From the NCBI RefSeq assembly GCF_019192965.1, contig NZ_JAHTKU010000011.1:186001-250000 (forward strand): a DNA stretch of 64,000 nt, in the 5' to 3' direction. Each line of letters begins with the position of its first letter. Position 1 is the stretch's first letter. Below, in pieces: positions 3,071-57,324 of this stretch. Made by a program: the position numbers and the translations under genes. Source of the stretch: Nocardioides daeguensis. GTDB taxonomy: Bacteria; Actinomycetota; Actinomycetes; Propionibacteriales; Nocardioidaceae. A model generated the notes under the pieces. That model had not been told where the DNA came from, searched no databases, and was given only the letters and a program-made list of their open reading frames with translations.

Positions 3071-4111
3071 ATGTCGGTGGGGGTCGACGTGCAGCACGAG
3101 GTCCAGCAGGGCGTCCAGCCGGGCCAGCCGGGCCAGCAGGACGTCGAGTACGTCACGCTGCACGGCAAGCGCCGCGCGTACGTCAAGAAGGGCGCCGGTC
3201 CGGCACTGCTGCTGCTCCACGGCCTGGCCTGCGACCACACCACGTGGTCGCACGTCGTCGACGACCTGGCCGAGCGCTACACCGTGATCGCCCCCGACCT
3301 GCTCGGGCATGGGCTGTCCGACAAGCCGCGGGCCGACTACACGCTCGGCGGCTACGCCAACGGCATGCGCGACCTGCTCACCGTGCTCGGCATCGACAAG
3401 GTGACCGTCGTCGGCCACAGCTTCGGCGGCGGCGTCGCGATGCAGTTCGCCTACCAGTTCCCCGAGCGCACCCAGCGGGTGATGCTCGTCTCGACCGGCG
3501 GTCTCGGACCCGAGGTGTCGCCGATGATCCGCCTGATCCAGGCGCCCGGCTGGTTCCGCACCATCGGGCTGCTCACCCTGCCGGGCATCCGGCACGTGGA
3601 GACCGCCGCGTTGCGGGCCGCGTCCGGACACCTCACCTTCGGGCCGCTGCGCAAGTACACCCGCGACCTCGACGAGGTCGCCGACATCGTCGAGTCCTGG
3701 AAGGACCGTCGCACCCGGTTCGCCATCCGCCACCTGGTCCGCGCGGTGATCGACTGGCGCGGCCAGATCGTCACCATGGCGGACCGCGCCTACCTCAGCG
3801 AGGCCATGCCGATGGCCGTGCTGTGGGGCGCGGAGGACCAGGTGATCCCGGTCGCGCACGCGGAGAACGCGCGGGCGCTGGCTCCCGACGTCCGGGTCGA
3901 CGTGCTGGCCGACGCCGGGCACTTCCCGCACAAGGACCACCCCGAGGAGTTCGTCCGCCTGCTCGACGACTTCATCTCCACCACCGAGCCGGCGGCCTAC
4001 AACCGCGCCCGGTTCCGGCGGATGCTCAAGGCCGGTGCCTCCGCTCCGCTCGGCCCGCTCGCGGCGGCTGCCGCCGCCGAGGCGCGCGACGAGACGGTCA
4101 CCTCCGCCTGA
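3071..4111 (+). CDS. alpha/beta-fold hydrolase
   Basis: The protein has 346 residues counted from the ATG at 3071, chosen because GGAGGG lies 8 nt upstream; an in-frame start at 2981 would run through the operator region. It has the standard hydrolase parts: oxyanion region LLLLHGLACDHTTW (His50-Gly51), nucleophile elbow VVGHSFGGGVAMQF (Ser117), an Asp candidate in LWGAEDQVIP, and the His in DAGHFPHKDHPEEF. The N-terminal 25 residues are Gln/Gly/Pro-rich and unlike the fold. There is no signal peptide, so it is cytoplasmic. The fold matches fatty-acyl or ester hydrolases of mycobacteria, but substrate is unknown. It is followed by the tandem repeat and then aceE on the other strand. Confidence 0.85.
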   Translation: MSVGVDVQHEVQQGVQPGQPGQQDVEYVTLHGKRRAYVKKGAGPALLLLHGLACDHTTWSHVVDDLAERYTVIAPDLLGHGLSDKPRADYTLGGYANGMRDLLTVLGIDKVTVVGHSFGGGVAMQFAYQFPERTQRVMLVSTGGLGPEVSPMIRLIQAPGWFRTIGLLTLPGIRHVETAALRAASGHLTFGPLRKYTRDLDEVADIVESWKDRRTRFAIRHLVRAVIDWRGQIVTMADRAYLSEAMPMAVLWGAEDQVIPVAHAENARALAPDVRVDVLADAGHFPHKDHPEEFVRLLDDFISTTEPAAYNRARFRRMLKAGASAPLGPLAAAAAAEARDETVTSA

Positions 4112-4147
4112 GCCGGGCCTGCCCGTCCCCGCCGCCTTCGGCCGGCC

Positions 4148-4388
4148 CGACGTCTCGCCAGCTCGACGTCGGGGCCCTCGGGTTTCGATACGCCAGTCGT
4201 TGCCGCTCGCAGGCTCGCGCCAACGTGGCTACTCAACCTTCGGGCCCGATCCGACGTCTCGCCAGCTCGACGTCGGGGCCCTCGGGTTTCGATACGCCAG
4301 TCGTTGCCGCTCGCAGGCTCGCGCCAACGTGGCTACTCAACCTTCGGGCCCGATCCGACGTCTCGCAAGCTCGACGTCGGGGCCCTCA
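4148..4388. repeat. 104-bp tandem repeat (2.3 copies) at the aceE 3' end
   Basis: Two complete identical 104-bp units (4148-4251 and 4252-4355) and a third partial copy (4356-4387, one base change) lie between two convergent genes. Each unit contains TTTCGATACGCC ... GTGGCTACTCAACC, a self-complementary arrangement with GGGCCC boundaries. That is the same end-motif family (TCGATACG ... GGCTACTC) as the elements inside cobN and cobB in this window. The third copy runs into the aceE stop codon, so the repeat supplies two bases of the stop. It could act as a bidirectional terminator hairpin array; no coding function is seen. Confidence 0.9.
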
Positions 4389-17331: not shown

Positions 17332-20300
17332 ATGGCGCGCATCGCACTGCTGTCCACGTCCGACACCGACCTGCTGTCCGCGCGCACGAGTGGTGCCGAC
17401 TACCGCTGGGCCAACCCGAGTCGTACGGACCGCGACGGCCTCGTCGCCCTGGCCACGGACGCCGACCTGGTGCTCGTCCGGCTGCTGGGCTCCCCGCAGC
17501 AGTACGACGCCGAGCTGGCCGCGCTGCGCGGCACCGGCCGTCCGCTCGTGGTGCTCGGCGGCGAGCTGACGCCCAGCGCCGAGCTGATGGAGGCCTCGAG
17601 CGTGCCGGTCGGGATCGCCGCGCAGGCGCACCGCTACCTGGCCGAGGGAGGTCCGCGCAACCTCGCCGAGCTGCACCGGTTCCTGTCCGACACCGTGCTG
17701 TTGACCGGCGAGGGCTTCGAGGCGCCCGAGGTGATCCCGGCGTGGGGGATCGTGGAGCGGGAGCGTCTCGATACGCCGTCGCTCGTTCCTCACGACGGCT
17801 ACTCGACGAGCTCGGGTACGGCGAAGGTCGGCGTGCTGTTCTACCGGGCCCACCAGGCCAGCGGGAACACGGCCTTCGTGCACGCGCTGTGCGACGCGAT
17901 CGACGCGACCGGCGAGGCCGTCGGCGTGCCGATCTTCGCCGGCTCCCTGCGTTCCGCGCCCGACGAGCTGTTCACTGCGCTCGGCGACCTCGACGCGCTG
18001 GTCGTGACCGTGCTGGCCGCCGGGGGCTCGACGCCCGCCTCGGTCAGCGCCGGCGGAGAGGACGAGACCTGGGACGTGGAGCGGATCGCCGCGCTCGACA
18101 TCCCGGTGCTGCAGGGCCTGTGCCTGACCAGCAGCCGCGCGGAGTGGGAGGAGTCGGACGACGGCGTCACGCCGCTCGACTACGCCAACCAGGTGGCGAT
18201 CCCCGAGTTCGACGGGCGGATCAGCACGGCGCCGTTCTCGTTCAAGGAGATCGACCCCCGTGATCCCGCCGGGCTGCCGTCGTACGTCGCCGACCCCGAG
18301 CGCGCGGCGCGCGTCGCCGGGCTCGCGGTCGGCTACGCCCGGCTGCGGAAGGTGCCGAACGCCGAGAAGCGGATCGCGCTGATGCTCTCGGCGTACCCGA
18401 CCAAGCACTCCCGGATCGGCAACGCCGTCGGCCTCGACACCCCGGTCTCCGCGGTGCGGATGCTGCGCCGGCTGCGCGATGCCGGGTACGACGTCGGCGA
18501 CGGCTTCGGCGTGCTGGACCTCGACGACGACACCGTCGCCGGCGACACCCTGATCCACGCACTGATCGCCGCCGGCGGCCAGGACGAGGAGTGGCTGACG
18601 TCGGTGCAGCTCACGGACGCGCACGTGCGGATCTCGGCCGAGGACTACGCGACCTGGACCGCCGACCTGCCCGACGACCTGCGCGACGCGATGGTCGAGG
18701 CGTGGGGGCCCGCGCCGGGCCGGCTGTTCGTCAACGACAGCGACGAGATCGTGCTCGCCACCCTGCAGGCCGGCAACGTCGTGCTGATGATCCAGCCGCC
18801 CCGGGGCTTCGGGGAGAACCCGGTCGCGATCTACCACGACCCCGACCTGGCGCCCTCGCACCACTACCTGGCGGCGTACCGCTGGGTGGAGCACGGCTTC
18901 GGCGCCCACGCGGTCGTGCATCTCGGCAAGCACGGCTCGATGGAGTGGCTGCCCGGCAAGAACGCCGCCCTGTCGGCGTCGTGTGCCACCGACGCGGCGA
19001 TCGGCAGCATGCCGTTGATCTACCCGTTCCTCGTCAACGACCCCGGTGAGGGCGCGCAGGCCAAGCGCCGCGCGCATGCGACGATCATCGACCACCTGGT
19101 GCCGCCGATGGCGCGCGCGGAGGCGTACGGCGACATCGCGCGCCTCGAGGGCCTGCTCGAGGAGTACGACAAGATCTCCGCGATGGACCCGGCCAAGCTC
19201 GCCGCGATCCGCGGTGAGATCTGGCAGCTGATGCACGCCGCCGAGCTGCACCGCGACCTCGGTCTGGACGAGCAGCCCGAGGACGACGACTTCGACGACT
19301 TCCTGCTCCACGTCGACGGCTGGCTGTGCGAGATCAAGGACGTCCAGATCCGCGACGGGCTGCACGTCCTCGGCCAGGCGCCGGAGGGGGAGGCGCGGGT
19401 CAACCTGGTGCTCGCCATCCTGCGGGCAGCGCAGGTGTGGGGCGGGCAGGCGCAGGCCGTGCCGGGCCTGCGCACCGCGCTGGGACTGGCGCCGGACGCC
19501 CCGACCGTCGAGGTCGACCGGGTCGAGGCCGAGGCGCGGGCCCTGGTCGAGGCGATGGAGAAGTCCGGCTGGGACCCGGCCCGTGTCGCGGACCTGCACC
19601 AGGATGCCGACGTACGGCGGGTGCTGGCCTTCGCCGCCACCGAGGTGGTGCCGCGGCTGTCGCGGACCACCGACGAGCTCGACCACACGCTGCACGCGCT
19701 GGCCGGCGGCTTCGTGCCCGCCGGCCCGTCGGGCTCGCCGCTGCGTGGCCTGGTCAACGTGCTGCCGACCGGACGGAACTTCTACACGGTCGACCCGCGT
19801 GCGGTGCCCTCGCGCCTCGCGTGGCAGACGGGCCAGGCGATGGCCGACTCCCTGCTCGAGCGCTACGTGTCGGACGAGGGCGCCTACCCCGAGTCGGTGG
19901 GCCTCTCGGTGTGGGGAACCTCGGCGATGCGTACCTCCGGTGACGACGTGGCCGAGGTGCTTGCGCTGCTCGGCGTGCGCCCCGAGTGGGACGAGGCCTC
20001 CAAGCGGGTGCACGCGCTGAGCGTCGTACCTCTCGAGGAGCTCGGCCGGCCGCGGATCGACGTGACGGTGCGGATCTCCGGCTTCTTCCGCGACGCCTTC
20101 CCGCACGTGGTGGCGATGCTCGACGACGCAGTCCGGATGGTCGCCGAGCTCGACGAGCCGCTCGAGGCCAACTTCGTGCGCGCCCACGCGCAGGCCGACC
20201 TGGCCGAGCACGGCGACGCCCGGCGCGCCACCACCCGGATCTTCGGCTCCAAGCCGGGCTCCTACGGCGCCGGCATCCTGCAGGCCGTCGAGTCCGGCTC

Positions 20301-20952
20301 CTGGCGCGACGACGCCGACCTCGCCGAGGTCTACACCGCCTGGGGCGGCTTCGCCTACGGACGCGGCCTCGACGGCGTACCCGCCTCCGACGACATGCGG
20401 GCCAACTACCGCCGGATCAAGGTCGCCGCCAAGAACATCGACACCCGCGAGCACGACATCGCCGACAGTGACGACTACTTCCAGTACCACGGCGGCATGG
20501 TCGCCACGATCCGCGCGCTGACCGGCACTGCCCCCCGCGCCTACGTGGGGGACTCCACGACGCCGGACGCCGTGCGCACCCGGACCCTGCAGGAGGAGAC
20601 CAACCGGGTCTTCCGCGCCCGCGTCGTCAACCCGCGCTGGATCGGCGCGATGCAGCGCCACGGCTACAAGGGCGCCTTCGAGCTGGCCGCGACCGTCGAC
20701 TACCTGTTCGGCTTCGACGCCACCGCCGGGGTCGTGCACGACTGGATGTACGAGTCGCTGGCCAAGGAGTACGTGCTCGACGAGACCAACCAGGAGTTCC
20801 TGCGCCGGTCGAACCCGTGGGCGCTGCGCAGCATCGTCGAGCGGCTGCACGAGGCGAAGGACCGTGGGCTGTGGGCGGCTCCTGATCCCGACGTGCTGGC
20901 CGCCCTCCAGGCGGCGTACCTCGAGGTCGAGGGCGACCTGGAGGACCGATGA
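17332..20952 (+). CDS. cobN: cobaltochelatase subunit CobN
   Basis: The 1,206-residue large subunit inserts Co2+ into hydrogenobyrinic acid a,c-diamide in the aerobic B12 route, with an AAA/VWA partner (here the fused I/D protein at 44084-46057). Family marks: GVLFYRAHQASGNTAFVHAL, the AVVHLGKHGSMEWLPGK block (about 528-545), and RVVNPRWIGAMQRHGYKGAF. Length is normal (1,200-1,280). ATG 17332 is used, 11 nt after GAGGAGG; the frame stays open into the riboswitch. Residues 146-161 (LDTPSLVPHDGYSTSS) come from an in-frame repeat element (17767-17814) in a linker before the GVLFYRAH domain. Confidence 0.96.
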   Translation: MARIALLSTSDTDLLSARTSGADYRWANPSRTDRDGLVALATDADLVLVRLLGSPQQYDAELAALRGTGRPLVVLGGELTPSAELMEASSVPVGIAAQAHRYLAEGGPRNLAELHRFLSDTVLLTGEGFEAPEVIPAWGIVERERLDTPSLVPHDGYSTSSGTAKVGVLFYRAHQASGNTAFVHALCDAIDATGEAVGVPIFAGSLRSAPDELFTALGDLDALVVTVLAAGGSTPASVSAGGEDETWDVERIAALDIPVLQGLCLTSSRAEWEESDDGVTPLDYANQVAIPEFDGRISTAPFSFKEIDPRDPAGLPSYVADPERAARVAGLAVGYARLRKVPNAEKRIALMLSAYPTKHSRIGNAVGLDTPVSAVRMLRRLRDAGYDVGDGFGVLDLDDDTVAGDTLIHALIAAGGQDEEWLTSVQLTDAHVRISAEDYATWTADLPDDLRDAMVEAWGPAPGRLFVNDSDEIVLATLQAGNVVLMIQPPRGFGENPVAIYHDPDLAPSHHYLAAYRWVEHGFGAHAVVHLGKHGSMEWLPGKNAALSASCATDAAIGSMPLIYPFLVNDPGEGAQAKRRAHATIIDHLVPPMARAEAYGDIARLEGLLEEYDKISAMDPAKLAAIRGEIWQLMHAAELHRDLGLDEQPEDDDFDDFLLHVDGWLCEIKDVQIRDGLHVLGQAPEGEARVNLVLAILRAAQVWGGQAQAVPGLRTALGLAPDAPTVEVDRVEAEARALVEAMEKSGWDPARVADLHQDADVRRVLAFAATEVVPRLSRTTDELDHTLHALAGGFVPAGPSGSPLRGLVNVLPTGRNFYTVDPRAVPSRLAWQTGQAMADSLLERYVSDEGAYPESVGLSVWGTSAMRTSGDDVAEVLALLGVRPEWDEASKRVHALSVVPLEELGRPRIDVTVRISGFFRDAFPHVVAMLDDAVRMVAELDEPLEANFVRAHAQADLAEHGDARRATTRIFGSKPGSYGAGILQAVESGSWRDDADLAEVYTAWGGFAYGRGLDGVPASDDMRANYRRIKVAAKNIDTREHDIADSDDYFQYHGGMVATIRALTGTAPRAYVGDSTTPDAVRTRTLQEETNRVFRARVVNPRWIGAMQRHGYKGAFELAATVDYLFGFDATAGVVHDWMYESLAKEYVLDETNQEFLRRSNPWALRSIVERLHEAKDRGLWAAPDPDVLAALQAAYLEVEGDLEDR
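17767..17814 (+). repeat. REP-like element inserted in frame in cobN
   Basis: The 48-bp stretch begins CTCGATACGCC, has a GCTCGTTCCTCACGACGG hairpin part, and ends CTACTCGACGAGCTCG. It is one arm of the same element present as a full palindrome in cobB (42008-42125). Its length is a multiple of three, so cobN stays in frame. Confidence 0.85.
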
Positions 20953-20967
20953 GTGCCGCTCGGGATG

Positions 20968-21030
20968 TTGCGGTTTGGGACCAAACCGCAACGACACGCC
21001 GTACGAGGCTGCGGTTTGTGCCCAATCGGC
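20968..21030. repeat. TGCGGTTTGG palindrome pair between cobN and cobF
   Basis: TGCGGTTTGG and CCAAACCGCA separated by two bases form a perfect palindrome (20969-20990, with one further pairing base each side). A second, degenerate copy starts exactly 41 bp later at 21010. The same pair, also 41 bp apart, occurs inside the cobIJ gene at 48762-48824. It fills most of the 97-bp gap between cobN and cobF and may form an mRNA hairpin. Confidence 0.88.
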
Positions 21031-32200: not shown

Positions 32201-35200
32201 CGACGGGCGCTACTCCGTCTCGCTGGCTCCCGGCACCTACTGGCTGACCTTCGAGTCCACCGACGGACGCTACGAGGACGGCACCGCCGACGCCGTCGCA
32301 GTGACGGCGGGCACCACGGTCACCGTCGACAACGCGCTGACCATGCAGTACGGCCGGATCACCGGCACCCTCACGGGTCTCGACGACGGACCGGTCGCCA
32401 ACGTGTGGGTGTACGCCTACCGCCAGACCGGCGCCGACAGTTGGACCTACGCGACGGCGACCAGCACCGACAGCGGTGGAGCGTACGTCCTCGGCAAGCT
32501 GGCGGCCGGTAGCTACCGGGTCAGGTTCGACACCTCCAACGAGGACTTCCACACCGGCGAGTACTTCGACGACACCCAGGACGCGGCCAGCGCCTCCCCG
32601 ATCACCGTCGCCGTCGGCGACTCGGCCACCGCCGACGCCGCACTCGCCGCGACCGGTGGCGTCGTCGCCGGCACCATCACGTTGCCCGGATCGCAGGCCT
32701 CGACCGGCACCTACGGATACGCCTACCTCTACCGGGAAATGGGCGACGGAGAGTGGAGCCATGCCCACACGGCGTCGTTCTACCGATCCACCGGCCAGAC
32801 CACCGCGAGCTACCGCTTCCGGCACGTCGAGCCGGGCAGCTACCGGCTGCACGTCGTCCCGGACGACGGCACCCACGTCGAGCGCTACTACCCGGCGAGC
32901 AGCACGCTCGCCGACGGGTCGGACGTCGAGGTCACGATCGGTCACGTCACGACGGCCGACGTCACGACACCGGTCGGCGCGTCCATCAGCGGGTCGGTGA
33001 CCGGCACCGACGGTGCTCCGGCGGTCAGCCTGTACGCCCACGTCCACCGGGTGGACCCGCTGACCGGGATCGACACGTACGTCGGCGGCGACTACACGGA
33101 CGCCCAGGGCAGCTACCGGGTGGGCGGTCTCCCGGCAGGAATGTACGTCGTCCAGTTCAGCTCGACCTCCGTGCACGTCGGCGAGTACTTCGACGACGCT
33201 GCCACGCAAGCGGAGGCACACCGATTCAGCCTGACCCTCGGCGACTCGGTGACCGCGGACGCCGAGCTCGATCTCCAGCTCGCCAACACCTCAGCGCCGA
33301 CCATCACCGGCGAGCTGCGTGTCGGCGAGGAGCTGAGCGCCGACCCGGGGACCTGGACGTATCCGGACGCGACGTTCACGTATCGGTGGATCCGCGGCTC
33401 CAGCTACATCTGGGGAGCCACCTCCCCGACATACGCGACCGTCGCGGCCGACCTGAACCAGCAGATCCGCGTCGAGGTGACGGCCTCGAGGCTGCGACAC
33501 AACGACCGGGCCGCCCAGTCGGCAGCCGTCGGTCCGATCGACTACGGTGTCATCGCCAACCCGACCCCGCCGGCGATCTCGGGAACGGCGCGGGTGGGCG
33601 AGACGCTCTCCGTCAGCGCGGGCACCTGGAAGCCGTCGTCCCCGTCGCTGACCTACCAGTGGCTGCGTGACGGCGAGCCGATCGAGGGCGCCACCGCGAC
33701 GACGTACCGCCTCGGCGCAGCCGACCTGGACGGACGCATCTCGGTCCGCGTCGACGCAGCCCAGACCGGCTACCACCCGACGACCGTCACGACGACGCCG
33801 ACCGACCAGGTCGGGCTCGGCGTCATCGACAACCTGAGCCCACCGACCATCGAGGGCACTCCCCGGGCGGGCGAGACCCTCACCGCGAGCAGTGACCGGT
33901 GGCTGGCCGCCGGCTTCACCGAGCAGCAGTCCCAGGTGGACGTCGCCTACCAGTGGCTGCGCGACGGCACCCCCATCGCCGGCGCGACCGGGCAGACCCA
34001 TCAGCTCACCGTCGACGACGCGACCCACCGCATCTCGGTGGTGGCCACGGCGACGAAGGCCGGGTACGCCCCGACCGAGGCGATTTCCGGGGCGAGCGAG
34101 AAGGTCACCTACGGCCTGGTCGCCAACACGGCGGCCGCGACGGTGAAGGGAACGCCGCAGGTCGGGAAGGCGCTCAGCGTCGACCTGGGCGACTGGAACA
34201 CGACAGGCATCGACTTCTGGTACACCTGGCTCCGCGACGACGGGACGACGCTGGGCTCGGGCGCCACCTACACGCCGGGGCCCGACGACATCGACCACCT
34301 GGTGTCGGTGCGCGTGCGGGGCACGAAGCCCGACTGGGACCCGGGGGAGACGACCACCGGACAGGTCGGTCCGGTGCTCGTCGGTCAGTTCGACAACCGG
34401 ACCGCACCCAGCATCGCGGGCACCTCGCAGGTCGGAGTCGCGCTCGAGGTGTCCACGGGTGACTGGGAGCCGAGCCCGGCGGACACGACCTATCGGTGGC
34501 TCAGCGACGGGGAGCCGATCGCCGACGCGACCACCAGCCGGTTCACGCCGGGGGCCGAGCACGTCGGTACGACGATCTCGGTCGAGATGACGCTGTCGCG
34601 CAGCGGGTACGAGTCGACGACGGCCACGGCCGCGACGTCGGCCCCCGTGGCGCCGGGCGTGATCGTGAACGAGCAGCGTCCGGTGATCTCGGGCCCCACC
34701 CGCGTCGGTGAGACCCTGACGACCGACGGCGGCTCCTGGGACCTCGACGACGTGGACCTCGGCTACCAGTGGCGACGCGACGGGGAGGCCATCGCCGACG
34801 CCACCGGCCCGAGCTACGTCCTGGTCCCCGCCGACGCACAGGCGGCGATCTCCGTGGTCGTGACGGCTGCGAAGGCCGGGTACGCGCCCACGTCCCGCGC
34901 CTCCGTGGCGACCGATCCGATCACCTACGACGTCGTCCACAACGTCACCCCACCCACCGTCAGCGGCGACGCCACGGTGGGGGAGACCCTGGTGGCCACC
35001 GCGGGCGAGTGGGACCAGGACGACGTTGCCGTGACCTGGCAGTGGCTCCGTGACGGCGAGGTCGTCGCCGGAGCCACCGGGCCCTCCCGCACCCTGGTCG
35101 CCGCCGATCTCGGCACGCGGATCAGCGTGCGGGCCACGGCGGCCAAGGCGACCTACGACTCCGGCAGCGCCGACTCCGGCGAGACGGACGCCGTCGTCGA

Positions 35201-38200
35201 GGGCTACCTCGCCAACACCGCGCTCCCGGCCGTGTCGGGATCCGTGCGGGTCGGCGAGACGCTGAGCGCGACGCGCGGCGGCTGGAGCCCGGAGCCGACC
35301 GCGTTCGGCTACGAGTGGCTCCGCGACGGGACGCCCGTCGACGGGGCGACGTCCTCGACGTACACCCTGACCGAGAGCGACCTCGGCGCCCGGCTCTCCG
35401 TCACGGTCACGGCCAGCAGCGACGGCTATCACCCGGCCACCGCGACTTCGGAGCCCACGGGCGCCGTCGCCGGGCCCAACCACGCCCCCGTGCTGACGGT
35501 CGACATCTCGCCCACGACGACGGGGGCCGCACCCTTCGACGTCGGTCTGCTGTTCGGCGCGACCGACGACGACGGGGACACCCTGTCCTACAAGGTCGAG
35601 TACGGCGACGGCTCGCCCGTCATGACCGGCTCGCAGCCGCCGGTCACGCCGCTGCCCCACACCTACGGCCAGCCCGGCACGTACCAGCTGAAGGTGTCGG
35701 TTACCGACGGCATCCGGACCGTCGCCAGGACGACCACCATCTCCGCCGTGCTCCCCGAGCCGGTGGCCGCCAACGCCGGAGATGACCAGGTCGCCGTCGA
35801 GGGCGAGGCGGTCGCGTTCGACGGCTCCGGGTCACGGCCGGTCGGCATGATCGCGTCGTACCACTGGGACTTCGGGGACGGCACCACCGGCTCCGGCCCC
35901 CGGCCCAGCCACACCTACGGTGCGCCGGGCGACTACGTGGTGACGTTGACCGCCGAGGTCGCGGGCGAGTCGAGCACCGACGAGGCGGCGGTGTCGGTCA
36001 CCGCCGAGCCGCCGTTCGAGGGCATCGTCGCCACGGTCACCGGCGCCGGCGCGGTCCCGTTGGCCAGCGCGACGGTCCTCCTGATCAACGGTGACGGGTC
36101 CCGGCTCACGGCGCGGTCGGACGCCGACGGCGAAGCACGGCTGCGCGGCCTCGACGACGGCCAGTACACCGTGTTCGCGGTCGCTGACGGCTTCCGTCCC
36201 GGCCAGGCGGTCGCCGAGGTCTCCGGGGGGAGCGCCGAGGTGACGATCGAGCTGGAGGAGGGGCCGGCCGCCACGGCCGAGGTGAGCACCGAGCGGATGA
36301 CGCCCGAGCAGATCGAGGCCGTGGGCATCGACCCCGCCGACCCGGCCAACCAGAACGTCGTGGAGTTCGAGATCCACCTGCCGTTCCGGCCGACCGGCGA
36401 GGCACCGCCTCCGGTCACCGGTGTCGCCAACTCCTCGGGCTTCATCGGCTGCCCCGCCATCGACGGCATCCAGGTGACCTGCGGTGGCGGCTGGGGCGGC
36501 GGCGGTGGCGGCGGTGGCGCGTGCACCTGCACCGGGTCGTTCTCGGCCGGTGGGTACGACTACGAGTTCTGGGGCACCAGCGAGTACCTCGTGTGGCTGG
36601 TCATCCCCGGCCGCGCGTCGTGGCTGAAGGAGTTCTTCGACGTCTCGCTCATGGTGACGAACCTCAGCGAGGGCGCGGACTTCGTGCTGACCGACGGTGC
36701 CGCCAGCCTGGAGCTGCCGAGCGGCCTGGCCCTCGCGCCGACGTCCTTCGCGCAGTCGACGACCGCCGACTTCCCCGACATCCCCGCAGGGGAGAGCCGC
36801 ACGATCCACTGGTACGTGCGCGGTGACGTCGAGGGTGAGTACCCGATCAAGGCGTCGTACGCCGGCTTCCTCCAGCCCTTCGACCTGCCGATCAACATCA
36901 CGGCGCTCGCCAAGAACCCGATCAAGGTGTGGGGCGGGTCGGCGTTCAAACTCAAGGTGCACGCCGACAAGTACGTCACCAGAGACCACCCGTACCACGT
37001 CCGCGTCGGCATCGAGAACGTCGCCGACGTGCCGATGTACAACGTCACCTTGGAGCTGCTGACCGGCGGTGCCCAGCTCAACTACATCTACCAGCCACGT
37101 GAGCAGCTGGCCCACACCAAGGCGGTGGTCGCCGCCGGCGAGACGCTGGAGTACGACTACATCCTGGTGCCCCGGATCACCGGGACCCTCGTGCTCGACA
37201 AGGCCTTCGTCGCCTACACGACCGGCCTCGAGCTCGACAGCGCCGTGATCACCCAGAACGACGTCGAGCGCGATCGGCCCGACATCGAGCCGGCGGCGCT
37301 GAACCACAAGGTCGGGCTGATCTTCGAGAACGTGCCGGGGTCCTCGGACCTCCAGGTGTTCAGCACGCCCGACGAGGCCACCGAGTTCCCCGCGGAGTCG
37401 GAGGGCGTCACCTGGGTGCGCGACACGGCCGACGGACGCAAGCGCGGGTTCGTGTCCGACGTCGATCCTGCCGACGAGAGGTACTTCGCGGTCAGCCCGA
37501 TCGTGGCGGCGAAGCCCGAGATGAGCCATGCCATGGTGCTGGCGCGCTCGAACTCGCTCCCGTCGTCCGTCATCGCCGGCGCGAGCTACTCGACGAAGAG
37601 CGGGCAGCCCCACTCCTGCGGCGAGACCGGGCCCTTCGCGGCCACGGTCAGCGCCTCGGACGACTTCGGGCTGGAGTGGGTGGAGTACGAGGTCACCGAC
37701 GCGACCGGCACGCACCCCGTCGAGCGCGTGGTCGTCCCGGCGGATGCCGACGACACCGCGTTCGCGAAGGAGATCTCCGTCGAGCTGGTCGACGGCTCGA
37801 CCGTCTCGATCAGGGTGCGGGCGAAGAACCTCGCCGGTGACGTCGGTGAGTGGACCGGGCCGATCACCCTCGACCAGCTGTGTCCCGTGCACCGGGCCGT
37901 GGTCCTCGCCGCCGGCCTCACCTCCTCGCTTGACGACAACTCCTCGGTGGTCACCGGCTCCGACTGCGCCCTCGACGGCGACGAGCGGGACGGTTGGAAC
38001 AAGACCTGGGCGGCAAACGCCTGCGACGAGTCGGGCAGCAAGGGCTACGGCCCGGGCGCGGGCGTGAAGGGCAACGTCCTGGCCCAGCTGGAGGACGCCG
38101 GCTACGACCCCGGCCAGGCCCGAGGCTCCTTCTTCCGTGACGTGCTGGAGTTCTCCTACACGGGCGCCATCAGCGACGGGCAGAACGGGCAGTGCTGGTT

Positions 38201-40385: not shown

Positions 40386-41397
40386 CCAGTCGCCGACGGG
40401 GGTGGACGGCGGCGAGTGCGGCCAGCAACTGGTCCGTCGTCTCCGGTGGCCGGACCGCGACCCGCACCCAGCTGCCGTCGAGGCCGGGGAAGGTGTCGGC
40501 CCGGCGGACCGCGATGCCGCGCTCCCGCAGCCGGGCGTGCACGCCGTCGCCGACCCGGGCGAGCACGAACGACGCCGCCGACGGCAGGTGGGGGATGCCG
40601 AGGTCGGCGAGGCCCTTCTCGAGGTTCTCGCGCCAGTCCCGGATCTGCTCGGCCCTGCGGCGCGCCTCCTGCGCGGCCTCGGCGCCGGTGCAGGCGACGA
40701 CGGCCGCCGAGGCGGTGGTGCCGACCGACCACGGGGTCTGCGCCTGCGCCAGGCCGGCCACGACGCGCGGGTCGCCGACGACGTAGCCGGCGCGGATGCC
40801 GGGGATTCCCCAGTGCTTGGTGAGGGAGCGCAGCACCACCAGTCCGTCGAGGGGTACGCCGGCCAGCGACTCCGGCTCACCCGGGACGCAGTCCATGAAC
40901 GCCTCGTCGACCACCACCAGCCGCCCGGGCCGGCGCAGCGCCGCCAGGACGGCGGCGGGGTGCAGGACGCCCGTCGGGTTGGTGGGGTTGCCCACGACCA
41001 CCAGATCGGCGTCCGCCGGGACCAGGGCCGGGTCGAGGGTGAACGGCTCGCGCAGCACGACCGGGGTCACGTCTTGGCCGGCCTGCTCCAGCGCGGCGTG
41101 CGGCTCGGTGAACTGCGGGTGCACGACCACCGGGCGCCGCCACGGTCGCAGCCGCGCGACCAGGGTGAATGCCTCCGCCGCGCCCGCGGTCACGAGCACC
41201 TCGTCCTCGGCGCGCCCGTGGTGGGCGGCGACGGCCGTGGTCGCCGCGGTCGGGTCCGGGTAGGCGCCAACCGCGTCCAGGGAGGCGCGCAGGGCTGCGT
41301 CGAGCCAGGGCGGTCGCGGGCCGTCGTACACGTTGACGGCGAGGTCGATCATCCCGCGGGCCTCGACGTCGCCGTGGTGGCGCAGCGGGTCAGCCAC
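40378..41397 (-). CDS. cobC: CobC-like PLP-dependent aminotransferase/decarboxylase
   Basis: The 339-residue fold-type I PLP enzyme is related to histidinol-phosphate aminotransferase and threonine-phosphate decarboxylase. The PLP lysine is in VLRSLTKHWGIPGIRAGYVV, and DLVVVGNPTNPTGVLHP supplies the Asn. Its place at the end of the B12 operon points to making aminopropanol phosphate for cobD. GTG 41397 overlaps the cobB stop by 8 bp. Final gene of the riboswitch 3 operon. Confidence 0.86.
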   Translation of the reverse strand: MADPLRHHGDVEARGMIDLAVNVYDGPRPPWLDAALRASLDAVGAYPDPTAATTAVAAHHGRAEDEVLVTAGAAEAFTLVARLRPWRRPVVVHPQFTEPHAALEQAGQDVTPVVLREPFTLDPALVPADADLVVVGNPTNPTGVLHPAAVLAALRRPGRLVVVDEAFMDCVPGEPESLAGVPLDGLVVLRSLTKHWGIPGIRAGYVVGDPRVVAGLAQAQTPWSVGTTASAAVVACTGAEAAQEARRRAEQIRDWRENLEKGLADLGIPHLPSAASFVLARVGDGVHARLRERGIAVRRADTFPGLDGSWVRVAVRPPETTDQLLAALAAVHPRRRLAT

Positions 41398-42844
41398 GGT
41401 GCACCGCGTCCGCGAAGCGCGCGGCCAGCTGGGGGTGGCCGGCCCAGTGCGTGTGGAGGTACGACGCGTGCAGGGTCTCCGACGCGAAGCCGACCGGGTC
41501 GCCGTCGATCTCCCAGGCGGGGGTGCCGGTGAGGGCAGGGGTGACGGTGGTGCGGTGGAACTCGTGCCCGGTCACCTCCTCGCCGGCGCGCGTCAGCAGG
41601 GTGTCGGCGGGCGCGGTGGCGACGGGGTAGCGCAGCGTGAGCCGCTGGGTCATCGTGGCGTCGGCGGCGAGGACCCCGGCCATGGGGGCGCCGTCGAGGG
41701 TGCGGCACAGGTAGAGCAGGCCCGCGCACTCGGCGACCGTGGGCAGCCCGTCGAGGACGGCCTCCCTGACCTGGCCGAGCAGGGCGGTGTTGGCGGCCAG
41801 GTCGGCGGCGTGCACCTCCGGGAAGCCGCCGCCGAGGTACAGGCCGGCCGTGCCCGCCGGCAGGGCGGGATCCACTGCTGGGTCGAACGGCACGACGTCG
41901 CAGCCGTGCGCGGCGAGGAGCTCGGCGGTCTCGGCGTAGCGGAAGGTGAAGGCGCGGCCGGCCGCGACGGCCACTCTGCGCCGGGTCGGCGGGATCGCGG
42001 AGTCCCCGAGCTCGTCGAGTAGCTCCGTCGCGAGGAACGAGCGACGGGGCGTATCGAGACGTGGTGAGGCGCCTCGATACGCCCCCTCCGCTCGTTCCTC
42101 GCTCCGGCGGCTACTCGACGAGCTCGACGGACCGGGCGACCACGGGTGGGCGTCGAGTGCGGGAGCCGACCGGGCGATCGCCAGCACCGCGTCGAGGTCG
42201 ACGTGCTCCGCCACGACCGAGGCCAGCCGCGCGACGACCGCCTCGGACTCGCCGCGCTCGGCGGCGGTGACCAGGCCGAGGTGCCGCGAGGGGGTGGCGA
42301 TGGACGCGTCGCGGGGGATCACGCCCAGCACGGGCAGGGCGATGGACGAGCGGACCTCCTCGGCGTGCCGTGCCGACCCGGCCTGGTTGAGGATCACGCC
42401 CGCCACCGTCACGGTCGGGTCCCAGGTCGCCATCCCGTGCACGACCGCGCCGATCGAGCGCGAGGCGCGGGAGATGTCGACCACGAGCACGACCGGGGTG
42501 CGGGTCAGCGCCGCGACGTGCGCGGTGGAGGAGAACCCGTGGCCGCCGATCCGGCCGTCGTAGAGGCCCATCACGCCCTCGACGACAGCGACGTCCGCGC
42601 CCCGCGCGCCGTGCAGCAGCAGCGGGGCGACCAGCGACTCGCCGACCAGGTGCGGGTCCAGGTTGCGGCCCGGGCGCCCGCAGGCGAGCGCGTGGTAGCC
42701 GGGGTCGATGTAGTCGGGACCGACCTTGTGCCCGCTCACCGCGTGCCCCGCGGCCGCCAGCGCGGCCATCAGTCCGGTGGCGACGGTGGTCTTGCCCTGC
42801 CCGGTGGCGGGCGCGGCGACGACGACCCGGGGGAGGTCACCCAT
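41390..42844 (-). CDS. cobB: hydrogenobyrinate a,c-diamide synthase
   Basis: A 484-residue glutamine amidotransferase acting on the a and c carboxylates. P-loop VVAAPATGQGKTTVATGLMA at the start, KVGPDYIDPGYHALACGRPG, DISRASRSIGAVVHGMATWD. The C-terminal glutaminase has Cys in TVAECAGLLYLC and GHEFHRTTV. Residues about 240-279, rich in Ser/Arg (GPSSSSSSRRSEERAEGAYR), are coded by a 118-bp palindromic repeat inserted in the linker between the two domains. This makes the protein longer than typical (about 440-460). Start ATG 42844; 6 bp after cobO. Confidence 0.94.
   Translation of the reverse strand: MGDLPRVVVAAPATGQGKTTVATGLMAALAAAGHAVSGHKVGPDYIDPGYHALACGRPGRNLDPHLVGESLVAPLLLHGARGADVAVVEGVMGLYDGRIGGHGFSSTAHVAALTRTPVVLVVDISRASRSIGAVVHGMATWDPTVTVAGVILNQAGSARHAEEVRSSIALPVLGVIPRDASIATPSRHLGLVTAAERGESEAVVARLASVVAEHVDLDAVLAIARSAPALDAHPWSPGPSSSSSSRRSEERAEGAYRGASPRLDTPRRSFLATELLDELGDSAIPPTRRRVAVAAGRAFTFRYAETAELLAAHGCDVVPFDPAVDPALPAGTAGLYLGGGFPEVHAADLAANTALLGQVREAVLDGLPTVAECAGLLYLCRTLDGAPMAGVLAADATMTQRLTLRYPVATAPADTLLTRAGEEVTGHEFHRTTVTPALTGTPAWEIDGDPVGFASETLHASYLHTHWAGHPQLAARFADAVHRG
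42008..42125. repeat. 118-bp palindromic REP-like element inside cobB
   Basis: The left arm starts GAGCTCGTCGAGTAG and runs to GGGGCGTATCGAG. The right arm is its near-complete inverse, CTCGATACGCCCC ... CTACTCGACGAGCTC, with a 14-bp spacer. About 45 of 51 bases pair. One arm matches the element in cobN and the end motifs match the tandem repeat near aceE. The reading frame passes through it intact. Confidence 0.92.
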
Positions 42845-44087: not shown

Positions 44088-46057
44088 GCGGCCCTCCGGG
44101 TCACGTCGACCAGCGCCTCGGCGCTGACCTCGCCGATCGGGACGTGCTCGGCGCCGAGGTGCGCGGCCAGCGTGGCGGCCAGGCCCATCCGCATCGGGCC
44201 GGACTCGCAGTCGACGACGACGCTGGCGATGCCGGCCTCGGCCAGCAGGCCCGCGGCCAGCCGGGAGCGGACCACCGCGTCGGCCCCCGCGGTCGCGCGG
44301 CCGTCGGTGACCACGACGAGCAGGGCTCGGCGCTGGGGGTCCCGGGTGCGCTCGACGGCGAGCAGGTGGGCGGCCTCCAGGAGTCCCTCGGCGAGCGGCG
44401 TCCGGCCGCCGGACGGCAGGTCCTCGAGCCGCTGGGCCGCCGCGTCGACGGAGTGCGTCGGCGGCAGCGCCACCTCGGCGCCGGTGCCGCGGAAGGTGAC
44501 CAGCCCGACCTTGTCGCGGCGCTGGTAGGCGTCGAGCAGCAGGCTCAGCACGGCGGTCTTCACCTGCTCCATCCGCCGCCGCGCAGCCATCGACCCGGAG
44601 GCGTCGACGCAGAAGAGGACCAGGTTCGACTCCCGGCCCTCCCGTACGGCGACCCGCAGGTCGGCCGGCTCCAGCAGCAGCCGGCCCTCGGTCCGTCCGC
44701 GAGCGACCTGGTGGCGCGCCGCGGCCCGGATGGTCTCGGTCAGGTGGATCGCGCCGCCGCTCCCGCCCTGTCGATCGGGGGTGGTGGCGCCGACCCGGCG
44801 GCCGTTGCTGGTGCGCGCCCGGCTGCGGCGTCCCGCCGTGCCGGTGCCGACGCCGCGCACGCTCAGCAGCCGGGTGCGGTACGCCGGCCCGGTCCCCGCC
44901 ACGCTCGACCCACCCCCCGGTGACGACTCAACGGGAGTCTGTGACGACTCAACCGAAGTTTGTGACGACTCAACGGTTGAGTCGTCACTTTCTCCGGTTG
45001 AGTCGTCGGATCCTTCGGTCGAGTTGCCGGGGCCGTCGTTGCCGGGGCCGTCGTTGCCGGGGCCGTCGTCGTCCGGGCCCTCCGGCTCGGGCGGCTCCGG
45101 TGGCAGCTCGTCGTCGCCGAGCACCTGGTCGAGCAGGTCCTCGTCCAGCCCGGGCGCGTCGAACGGCTTGCGGCGCCGCCGGTGCGGCAGTGCGAGCCGG
45201 GCGGCCACCCGGATGTCGTCGAGGGTCACCTGCGAGCGGCCGGACCAGGCGGCGTGGGCGAGCGCGGTGCGGGCGGTGACGATGTCGGCGCGCAGGCCGT
45301 CGACGTCGAAGGCCGCGCAGACCTCGGCGATCTTGAGCAGCCCGGCGTCGGTGAGCCGGACCTCGCCGACGAGCCCACGGGCGGCGGCGATCCGTGCCTG
45401 CAGCGCCTCCTCGGCGGCGGCGTAGCGGGCGGCGAACCCGGCCGGGTCGGCGTCGTACGCCATCCGCCGGCGGACCACCTCGGCGCGCAGCGCCGGGTCG
45501 CGGGGTGCGGCGACCTCGACGGTCAGGCCGAACCGGTCGAGCAGCTGCGGGCGCAGCTCGCCCTCCTCGGGGTTCATCGTGCCGACGAGCACGAACCGCG
45601 CCTCGTGCGTCATCGAGACCCCGTCGCGCTCGACGGTCGCGCGGCCCATCGCGGCCGCGTCGAGGAGGAGGTCGACCAGGTGGTCGTGGAGCAGGTTGAC
45701 CTCGTCGACGTACAGGATCCCGCGGTGCGCCTTGGCCAGCAGCCCGGGCTCGTACTCCGCCTTTCCCTCCGCCAGCGCGCTCTCGAGGTTGATCGAGCCG
45801 GTGACCCGGTCCTCGGTGGCGCCGATCGGCAGCTCGACGAGGGGCACCGGCCGGTCGTCGACGGGCGGCAGCACGGCGGCCAGCGCCCGCACGATCGTCG
45901 ACTTTGCGGTCCCCTTCTCGCCGCGGACCAGTACGCCGCCGACGTCGGGGGCGATGGTGGTGAGGATCAGGGCGAGGGCCATCGGGTCCGGTCCCTCGGG
46001 GCCGTCGGCGCCGACCACGGCGCTGAACGGGAAGTGGTGGCTCTGGGGCGAGCTCAT
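44084..46057 (-). CDS. fused Mg/Co-chelatase ATPase I and VWA D subunits
   Basis: A 657-residue protein: AAA+ module (about 1-300) with Walker [17 protein letters not shown] and Walker [21 protein letters not shown]; a Ser/Asp/Pro-rich linker (about 316-450) full of short repeats; and a VWA domain with [19 protein letters not shown]. It resembles ChlI/ChlD of magnesium chelatase joined in one chain. In this operon it most likely partners CobN as the cobaltochelatase motor, replacing CobS and CobT; that is family knowledge plus context. ATG 46057 overlaps the cobM stop (ATGA); the upstream open frame is cobM in another register. Confidence 0.88.
44922..45008. repeat. 21-nt periodic repeat in the chelatase linker
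   Basis: GACGACTCAAC occurs three times (44922, 44944, 44965) and its inverse GTTGAGTCGTC twice (44977, 44998), about 21-22 bp apart within each group. The central pair makes a perfect 23-bp palindrome (44965-44987). The next bases carry three GTTGCCGGGGCCGTC-type repeats. They encode Ser/Asp/Thr/Glu and GPGND units. Confidence 0.85.
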
Positions 46058-48020: not shown

Positions 48021-49585
48021 CAGTCGACCCACCGTGGCGTCCAGACAATGCCGTTCGGCTCCACCCGCGTCGACGAGGCGCCCACGAGCAGGAGGCACTT
48101 CATGTCGATGCCGTCGGTGTCGAGCGCGCCGAGGGTGGTGACCGTCAGCGACTCCTCGGCCCGGCCGACGTCGCGGCCGACGACGACCACCGTGTCGGGG
48201 GAGCGGTGCTCCAGCAGGATCTTCTGCATCTCCACCACCTGGTCCCGGCGCGAGCGGGAGGCCGGGTTGTAGACGCCCAGCACCAGGTCGGCCTCGGCGA
48301 TCGCCCGGAGCCGGCGCTCGACGACCGGCCACGGCTTGAGGCGGTCCGAGAGGCTCACCACGGCGAAGTCGGCGCCGATCGGGGCGCCCGCCCGGGCCGC
48401 GACGGCCTGGACCGCGCTGACGCCGGGCAGCACCCGCACGGGCACGGTGGCGTGCTCCGGGTGGGCCGGGTCGGCGGTGGCCTCGAACACCGCCGCCGCC
48501 ATGCCGAAGACCCCCGCGTCGCCGCCGGACACCACGGCCACCCGCTCGCCGCGCAGCGCGAGGTCGAGCGCGAACCGGGCCCGGTCCACCTCCACCGTGT
48601 TGCCCGACGCGTGCCGCTGGAGACCGGGACGCTGCGGCACCCGGTTGACGTACGGCGCGTAGCCGACCACGTGCTCCACCTCGGCCAGCGCGGCCGACGC
48701 CTCCGGGGTCAGCCAGCCGTCCGGGCCGGGGCCGAGACCGACGACGAGCAGCTCCGCGGGTTGCGGTTTGGTCCCAAACCGCACGTTTTCGGGCTCAGAA
48801 CCTGCGGTTTGGGACCAAACCGCAGACCCACGCATCCGCTCGGGGGAAGCCGGCCGGGCGGTGTCGCCGGGCACCACGATGAGCGAGAAGTACGGCACCG
48901 AGTCGGCGTCGACGTCGGCGACGGGCAGCCAGCGCTCCTCGGGCTGGGAGGCGCGCTCGACGTACAGCGCGCCCTCGAGCCGTCCCGCGGCGGCGAGGGC
49001 GGACCGGACGGCGGGGAAGGTCCGGCCGAGCTTCATGATGATCGCGCCGTCGGTGTCGGCGAGGCGGCGGGCCAGCTCCGGCTCCGGGAGGGTGCCGGGG
49101 AGCACGGTGAGCACGTCGGTCTGTCGGACCAGGGGCGCCGGGATGGTGGCGGTGGCGGCGGCGAAGGCCGGGATGCCGGGGACCACCTCGACCGGGAACC
49201 GGTCGCGGAAGCGGTCGACGAGGTACATCGACGAGCCGTAGAACAGCGGGTCGCCCTCGGCGAGGAGGACGACGTCGCGGCCGGCGTCGAGGTGGACGGC
49301 GAGCCGGGCCTCGCACTCGTCGTAGAAGGCGGCCAGTGCGCCGACGTACCCACCCGGGTGGTCGGTGGTCCCGGTGGTGACCGGGTAGCGCAGCTCCTCC
49401 TCGATCGCGTCGGCCGGGATCAGCTCGGCGGCGATCCGGCGCGCGTGGGACTCCTTGCGGACGCCGGCGTGGAACGCGACGACGGAGGCCGCGCCGATCA
49501 GCCGCTCGGCCTTGCGGGTGATCAGCTCGGGGTCGCCGGGGCCGATGCCGACGACGGAGAAGCTGCCGGTGGTCGTGGTGGTCAC
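48020..49585 (-). CDS. cobIJ: fused precorrin-2 C20- and precorrin-3B C17-methyltransferase
   Basis: A 521-residue fusion. CobI half (about 1-245): VVGIGPGDPELITRKAERLI, LLAEGDPLFYGSSMYLVDRF, VVPGIPAFAAATATIPAPLV. CobJ half (about 276-521): VVGLGPGPDGWLTPEASAAL, VVSGGDAGVFGMAAAVFEA, VLPGVSAVQAVAARAGAPIG, VLGVYNPASRSRRDQV. Such fusions are known in mycobacteria (CobIJ). The linker (about 255-275, WSQTAGSEPENVRFGTK) is coded by an inserted palindrome pair (48762-48824). GTG 49585 overlaps the cobH stop (GTGA). Confidence 0.95.
   Translation of the reverse strand: MTTTTTGSFSVVGIGPGDPELITRKAERLIGAASVVAFHAGVRKESHARRIAAELIPADAIEEELRYPVTTGTTDHPGGYVGALAAFYDECEARLAVHLDAGRDVVLLAEGDPLFYGSSMYLVDRFRDRFPVEVVPGIPAFAAATATIPAPLVRQTDVLTVLPGTLPEPELARRLADTDGAIIMKLGRTFPAVRSALAAAGRLEGALYVERASQPEERWLPVADVDADSVPYFSLIVVPGDTARPASPERMRGSAVWSQTAGSEPENVRFGTKPQPAELLVVGLGPGPDGWLTPEASAALAEVEHVVGYAPYVNRVPQRPGLQRHASGNTVEVDRARFALDLALRGERVAVVSGGDAGVFGMAAAVFEATADPAHPEHATVPVRVLPGVSAVQAVAARAGAPIGADFAVVSLSDRLKPWPVVERRLRAIAEADLVLGVYNPASRSRRDQVVEMQKILLEHRSPDTVVVVGRDVGRAEESLTVTTLGALDTDGIDMKCLLLVGASSTRVEPNGIVWTPRWVD
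48762..48824. repeat. TGCGGTTTGG palindrome pair inside cobIJ linker
   Basis: Two perfect copies of TGCGGTTTGG / CCAAACCGCA with a 2-nt centre (48762-48783 and 48803-48824), 41 bp apart. The total of 63 bp is a multiple of three. It is the same pair as at 20968-21030 between cobN and cobF; the 19 bases between palindromes differ. Confidence 0.93.
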
Positions 49586-57217: not shown

Positions 57218-57324
57218 GTAACACGCTGTCCACCCGTCTGGTCGGCGGTTGTCAGCGGGATCGGGCCGATATTGCGGGCGAATCTGCTGACCAGCGACAA
57301 GTAGTCGGGTGGACAGCGTGTTAC
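57218..57324. repeat. 107-bp hairpin element with perfect 19-bp ends
   Basis: GTAACACGCTGTCCACCCG (57218-57236) and its exact inverse (57306-57324) enclose 69 bp that also pair in part (TGGTCGGCG / TGCTGACCA). It sits between the stops of convergent cobU and cobS. No open frame inside. Possibly a two-way terminator or a mobile palindromic element. Confidence 0.85.

Follow-up and report, generated by a model that had tools for sequence, protein, structure and literature searches.

Why does a gene for a cobaltochelatase subunit carry, in frame, a piece of DNA that recurs elsewhere in the same genome? We investigated this question in a window of 64,000 nucleotides from Nocardioides daeguensis (the whole stretch of DNA analyzed; unprefixed positions refer to it), where an earlier note had described the repeat at 17767-17814 as the half-copy of a mobile element shared with cobB. 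The answer that we consider highly probable is that a REP-like DNA palindrome, one of a kind dispersed in Nocardioidaceae, was inserted in frame in a surface linker of CobN and is tolerated there by selection.

The repeat and its host gene

The cobN gene (17332-20952, + strand) encodes an uninterrupted cobaltochelatase subunit of 1206 amino acids (CobN/Mg-chelatase family), with PF02514 matched over residues 100-1186 and 7c6o as a solved relative (E = 1e-130). A cobalamin riboswitch (RF00174, 17175-17295, + strand) lies directly upstream and is the sole match to Rfam. Codons 146-161 (17767-17814, + strand), which encode the element-derived peptide RLDTPSLVPHDGYSTS, fall almost wholly within the repeat. 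The linker that holds them is predicted to be disordered over residues 147-161, where AlphaFold2 returned pLDDT < 50, between flanking strands E138-140 and E164-171.

The sequence CTACTCGACGAGCTCG has three exact matches in the window (17799-17814, + strand; 42007-42022, - strand; 42111-42126, + strand), against a chance expectation of 0.14 matches per shuffle of the window with two mismatches allowed. The 48 bases at 17767-17814 read TCGATAC-GCCGTCG-CTCGTTCCTCA-CGACGGC-TACTCGAC, with short conserved flanks. They belong to an imperfect palindrome that is dispersed in the genome, of the form TCGATACGCC-stem-loop-stem-GGCTACTCGAC, which we denoted family A. Its pattern, TCGATACGN{8,38}CTACTCGAC, has 39 matches in the genome of 4.66 Mb, and the reversed control returned 0. 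The consensus of 37 of these copies defines a conserved unit of about 51 bp, [G][C]GTC-TCGATACG...CTACTCGAC-GANCTC, which in cobN spans approximately 17763-17813 (+ strand). The in-frame repeat is thus confirmed by the letters and by the genome search; the boundaries first proposed lie almost wholly inside the unit, which is longer, and "half-copy" proved wrong, the cobN site being one complete unit and the cobB site two units in inverted orientation.

Within the cobN copy, the inner stem has its left arm GCCGTCG at 17775-17781 and its right arm CGACGGC at 17793-17799, enclosing a loop (CTCGTTCCTCA, 17782-17792, all on the + strand) of a type common to many copies. We counted Watson-Crick pairs over the outer seven arm positions of 38 distinct inner segments: their own arms form 197 pairs and swapped arms 142 on average (0 of 5000 permutations reach 197). 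Since own arms pair better than swapped ones, the ends of the element are conserved while the stem varies with compensation; the inner stem covaries. Five of the six reading frames through the cobN copy are free of stops.

Two tandem arrangements belong beside this description. Seven element copies stand head to tail with a 53-bp period at G000:C33:316654-317008, and tandem 104-bp repeats at 4142-4349 of the window each contain TTCGATACGCC...GGCTACTCAACC, a variant of the element A family, and sit just 3' of position 4111, where an alpha/beta-hydrolase-like gene ends.

The window also holds other repeats. A second palindrome, TGCGGTTTGGGACCAAACCGCA, unrelated to element A, is found at 20969-20999, just after cobN, and again at 48762-48792 and 48803-48833. 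Long inverted repeats at 57218-57324 (46-nt arms starting GTAACACGCTGTCCACCCG) and 44922-45007 (34-nt arms GACGACTCAACGG...) are possibly more palindromic families. At 33652-35401 a unit of about 94 bp recurs six times in divergent form, several copies being spaced by 273 bp; it probably reflects domain repeats in a large protein.

Copies in cobB and elsewhere in the genome

The pair in cobB/cbiA (41390-42844, - strand; 484 amino acids) lies in the linker between the CbiA domain (residues 7-188) and the GATase_3 domain (residues 290-470), as placed by a domain search. Sequence matches and the genome pattern search locate one copy in coding-strand orientation at 42008-42062 (- strand) and an inverted second copy at 42070-42125 (+ strand), which is read in the opposite orientation. 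The claim that cobN and cobB read the element in different frames stands for the right ends of the coding-strand cobB and cobN copies (YSTSS vs. LLDEL), which differ because the inner arm length differs; it fails for the left ends, which encode RLDTP alike. The cobB site is empty in close relatives, whereas in four congeners (G193, G001, G042, and G112) it is occupied by elements of their own.

Seven of the 39 copies, at five loci, lie in an open frame with coding base composition on both sides: CobN, CobB (two copies), a GcvT-like protein, and two read-through domain junctions. The other 32 have no spanning coding frame, and several inverted pairs occur among the 39. One junction (L004 2-3037, - strand) has an inverted element pair at about 1441-1537 between GNAT acetyltransferase and IucA/IucC siderophore synthetase domains, without a stop, and represents a gene fusion or else an open junction. 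At the other (L006 6-2309, + strand), an element at about 1501-1547 separates amine-oxidase-like and DUF1365 domains in a single open frame, a possible gene fusion through the repeat. The GcvT-like folate-binding protein (L013 1329-2603, - strand) contains two repeat-derived stretches (VVEVRGALATS repeated, and GRVAAEERGGVSRP). In a further reading frame, L002 814-1932 (- strand), named by eye as sirohydrochlorin-chelatase-like, the N-terminal stretch VRRVAASASERRIETP is read from an element at 1501-1538.

The CobN linker across the genus

We found CobN in 148 of 216 congeneric genomes and read the linker in 116 of them, of which 115 were counted after one misanchored row was left out; the linkers listed are open throughout. 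In about half of the congeners the linker is short (about 11-16 residues), and otherwise it is mostly filled, always in frame. An element motif is present in 1 of the 46 short linkers (33-45 nt) and in 46 of the 65 long ones (at least 51 nt), vs. 11% of length-matched windows taken from flanking gene sequence. Some of the 19 long linkers without a recognized motif are simple tandem expansions.

The fillings belong to at least six sequence families: A (TCGATACG...CTACTCGAC), B (GGTTTCGAGAC...TCCTCAACCACC), C (GGTTTCGAGGCTCG...CGCACCTCAACCACC), D (GGTTTCGACACGCTCG...), E (a near-perfect inverted repeat, GCGATAGTCCCTG...CAGGGACTATCGC), and F (CCGTCGTACCGGAC...GTCCGGTACGACGG). Similar outer ends suggest that A to D may form one superfamily, to which E and F have no sequence relation. 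The insertion point inside the linker varies among sequences, and copies within genes occur in both orientations. Predicted RNA folds set E and F apart (z from -5.5 to -10), most inserts of families A, C, and D do not stand out, and the window's own cobN linker, with its A insert, folds no better than its shuffles (z = -0.4); fold energy is therefore not our main evidence.

Insertions of at least 5 amino acids over 431 aligned CobN residues are concentrated at two places, the linker (47 sequences) and a second loop near fragment residues 368-375 (about 15 sequences), with two further single sequences adjoining or inside the linker. In several species the second loop carries families A, B, and C (L036, L078, L108, L134, L153, and L155).

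Genome-wide counts, made for families A, B, and E, show each of them to be a dispersed repeat. The family A pattern is present in 71 of the 216 genomes (maximum 288 copies; 1 control match overall), family B in 72 (no control matches), and family E, with a unit of about 63-67 bp, in 37 (no control matches); for G105 and G109, the E matches include those inside cobN. In an order-wide sample of 343 genomes, element A was confined to the window's own taxonomic family (genera g1, g9, and g11) and two genomes elsewhere, both of one other family; named relatives are Nocardioides and Pimelobacter.

Recurrence and turnover at the linker

Filled and empty states of the linker are phylogenetically scattered. 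On a tree of 115 CobN fragments with the linker removed, a minimum of 30 switches from filled to short or back is required, and a minimum of 46 when families are distinguished; the tree is a quick one with moderate branch support (37 of 112 forks open), and if cobN had passed between species, these counts would be inflated and the true number of insertions lower. Replacement is seen most closely in two congeners with family C (G007 and G167) and one with a tandem of family A (G095), in which 240 nt of flank on each side are 96-98% identical.

The nearest relatives of the window's genome, G154 and G155, retain the left end of element A but have lost 27 bases in frame. The insertion in cobN therefore probably predates the split from them; inserts would then decay by in-frame deletion, the direction of this change being inferred. 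Clean short linkers appear in slightly more distant relatives. The search for empty sites suggested by the earlier note thus succeeded further out, and the closest genomes yielded a remnant. Comparison of filled and empty sites left any target-site duplication unreadable, the clean empty sites being too diverged and the nearest relatives holding the deleted remnant. Mobility, as the note had claimed it, is inferred from recurrence, and neither a mobilizing enzyme nor a clean target duplication was found.

Search for a mobilizer

A profile search for the Y1 transposase of REP elements (PF01797, RAYT) found none in the window's own genome. It was absent from 215 of the 216 congeners, the sole carrier being G149 (86% complete, 200 contigs), and none scored above cut-off in 15 high-copy genomes, with control genomes scoring positive. 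Having been sought at these three levels, RAYT was rejected as the helper. No transposase lies between two element copies at L002, the single case examined, and a literature search on REP elements in Nocardioides returned nothing relevant. A diverged or different nuclease, a lost helper, and a replication-based route are candidates for the spreading activity.

Alternative explanations

Four rival explanations were weighed against a tolerated insertion of dispersed DNA. If CobN, CobB, and other proteins shared a motif or small domain, the likeness of their DNA would follow from the protein, and the common RLDTP of cobN and one cobB copy, as well as RLDTPTLVPRDGYST encoded by the CobN of G098, would fit. 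We give this almost no credence: most copies in the genome lie outside coding frames, which we take to refute it, the right ends differ in frame, both orientations occur within genes, and the peptide is missing from distant CobN proteins, including 7c6o. That last comparison was the one by which the earlier note had proposed to test its own claim of a DNA-level repeat, a claim that holds on this ground, on the 39 genomic copies, and on the unrelated palindrome families that occupy the same CobN site in other species. The linker might instead have grown locally, by slippage or tandem duplication without dispersed elements, as tandem-expanded linkers (L142, L146, L151, L155, and L087) suggest. 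In these the first unit mostly matches a dispersed family, so that tandem growth seems secondary; near-identical genes hold different families, and recognized family motifs account for most long linkers (46 of 65), which makes purely local growth very unlikely.

A true hotspot, in which the mobilizer prefers the linker DNA or loops are favored targets beyond what tolerance allows, would explain why one linker in a 431-residue fragment has insertions in 47 sequences and why unrelated families use the same place. However, CobB and the second CobN loop are filled too, as tolerance predicts, the exact point within the linker varies, and only survivors are visible; we regard a hotspot as rather unlikely. 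The insert might also serve a function, as an mRNA hairpin tuning translation or as a loop altering chelatase assembly. Its recurrence over the genus and the stable mRNA palindromes of families E and F speak for this, but presence is erratic between sisters, inserts decay by deletion, their sequence, orientation, and length are unconstrained, and the A insert in the window has no fold beyond that of its shuffles, so that we strongly doubt it.

We therefore prefer insertion of a dispersed element tolerated by selection, and the events behind it can be pictured as follows. A trans-acting activity would copy the elements, CobN itself playing no role, and the elements would be selfish or neutral DNA landing in many places. 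Purifying selection would keep those insertions that are intergenic, or in frame and stop-free in tolerant loops; survivors in coding sequence would need a length that preserves the frame and a protein that tolerates 10-70 extra residues. The high GC content and near absence of stops in the elements would make such survivors common, and the inserts would later decay by in-frame deletion, as in G154 and G155.

More tentatively, and with somewhat less than even confidence, we suggest that Nocardioidaceae hold an unrecognized, Y1-independent activity that copies REP-type palindromes of multiple families and repeatedly seeds coding loops. If so, CobN and CobB would be natural recorders of element insertion and turnover, and the growth of loops from selfish DNA would be a routine source of protein variation in Nocardioidaceae.

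Comparison with known systems

Rickettsia and Wolbachia are the best-known hosts of in-frame palindromic insertions (PMC10969869, PMC3767692), and we now find such insertions in free-living, GC-rich actinobacteria. The palindromic elements of those genera (RPE/WPE) form several families, lie in frame in genes for housekeeping enzymes where they add peptide loops, and have noncoding copies too (PMC10969869, PMC3767692, with Ogata et al. 2000, 2002 cited therein). Like RPEs, the repeat studied here lies in frame within unrelated genes (CobN, CobB, and GcvT-like). Its units are shorter (about 50-65 bp vs. 100-150 bp) and its hosts belong to another phylum than the rickettsial ones and differ from them in base composition, the comparison being one of description, with no sequence kinship claimed. 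Rickettsia orthologs have been reported with the insert at the same locus (PMC3767692), whereas here the linker differs between sisters, and unrelated families take each other's place at a single site. The wider pattern is the more notable finding: a single CobN loop has been colonized by six or more families and shows a minimum of 30 filled/empty changes across the genus. It makes a question raised for Rickettsia testable: whether inserts are neutral, selected, or targeted.

MITEs are sometimes fused in frame to ORFs (PMC10969869), and the elements resemble them as small nonautonomous repeats with inverted-repeat ends (near-perfect in E and F); unlike for MITEs, neither an autonomous parent nor a target-site duplication was identified here.

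REPs are defined by GTRG plus a palindrome and are found almost exclusively between genes (PMC3686654). The minus strand of element A reads GTCGA-GTAG-stem-loop-stem, with GTAG at the 5' foot of the stem; the outer positions of family A are fixed and the inner pairs covary. The number of copies (39 in this genome, up to 288 in the genus), the inverted doublets, and the 32 of 39 copies outside a spanning coding frame agree with REPs as well. In contrast to REPs, insertions into coding sequence are recurrent, and GTRG at the stem is not seen in every one of families B-F. A cognate RAYT is missing from the window's own genome and from 215 of 216 congeners, and none scored above cut-off in the 15 high-copy genomes. 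As family A matches REPs in two sequence features and lacks RAYT, we call it REP-like and do not file it as a RAYT-REP; REP-like elements thus occur in many copies in genomes that lack the known REP transposase. By analogy, the element acts like RPEs and looks like REPs.
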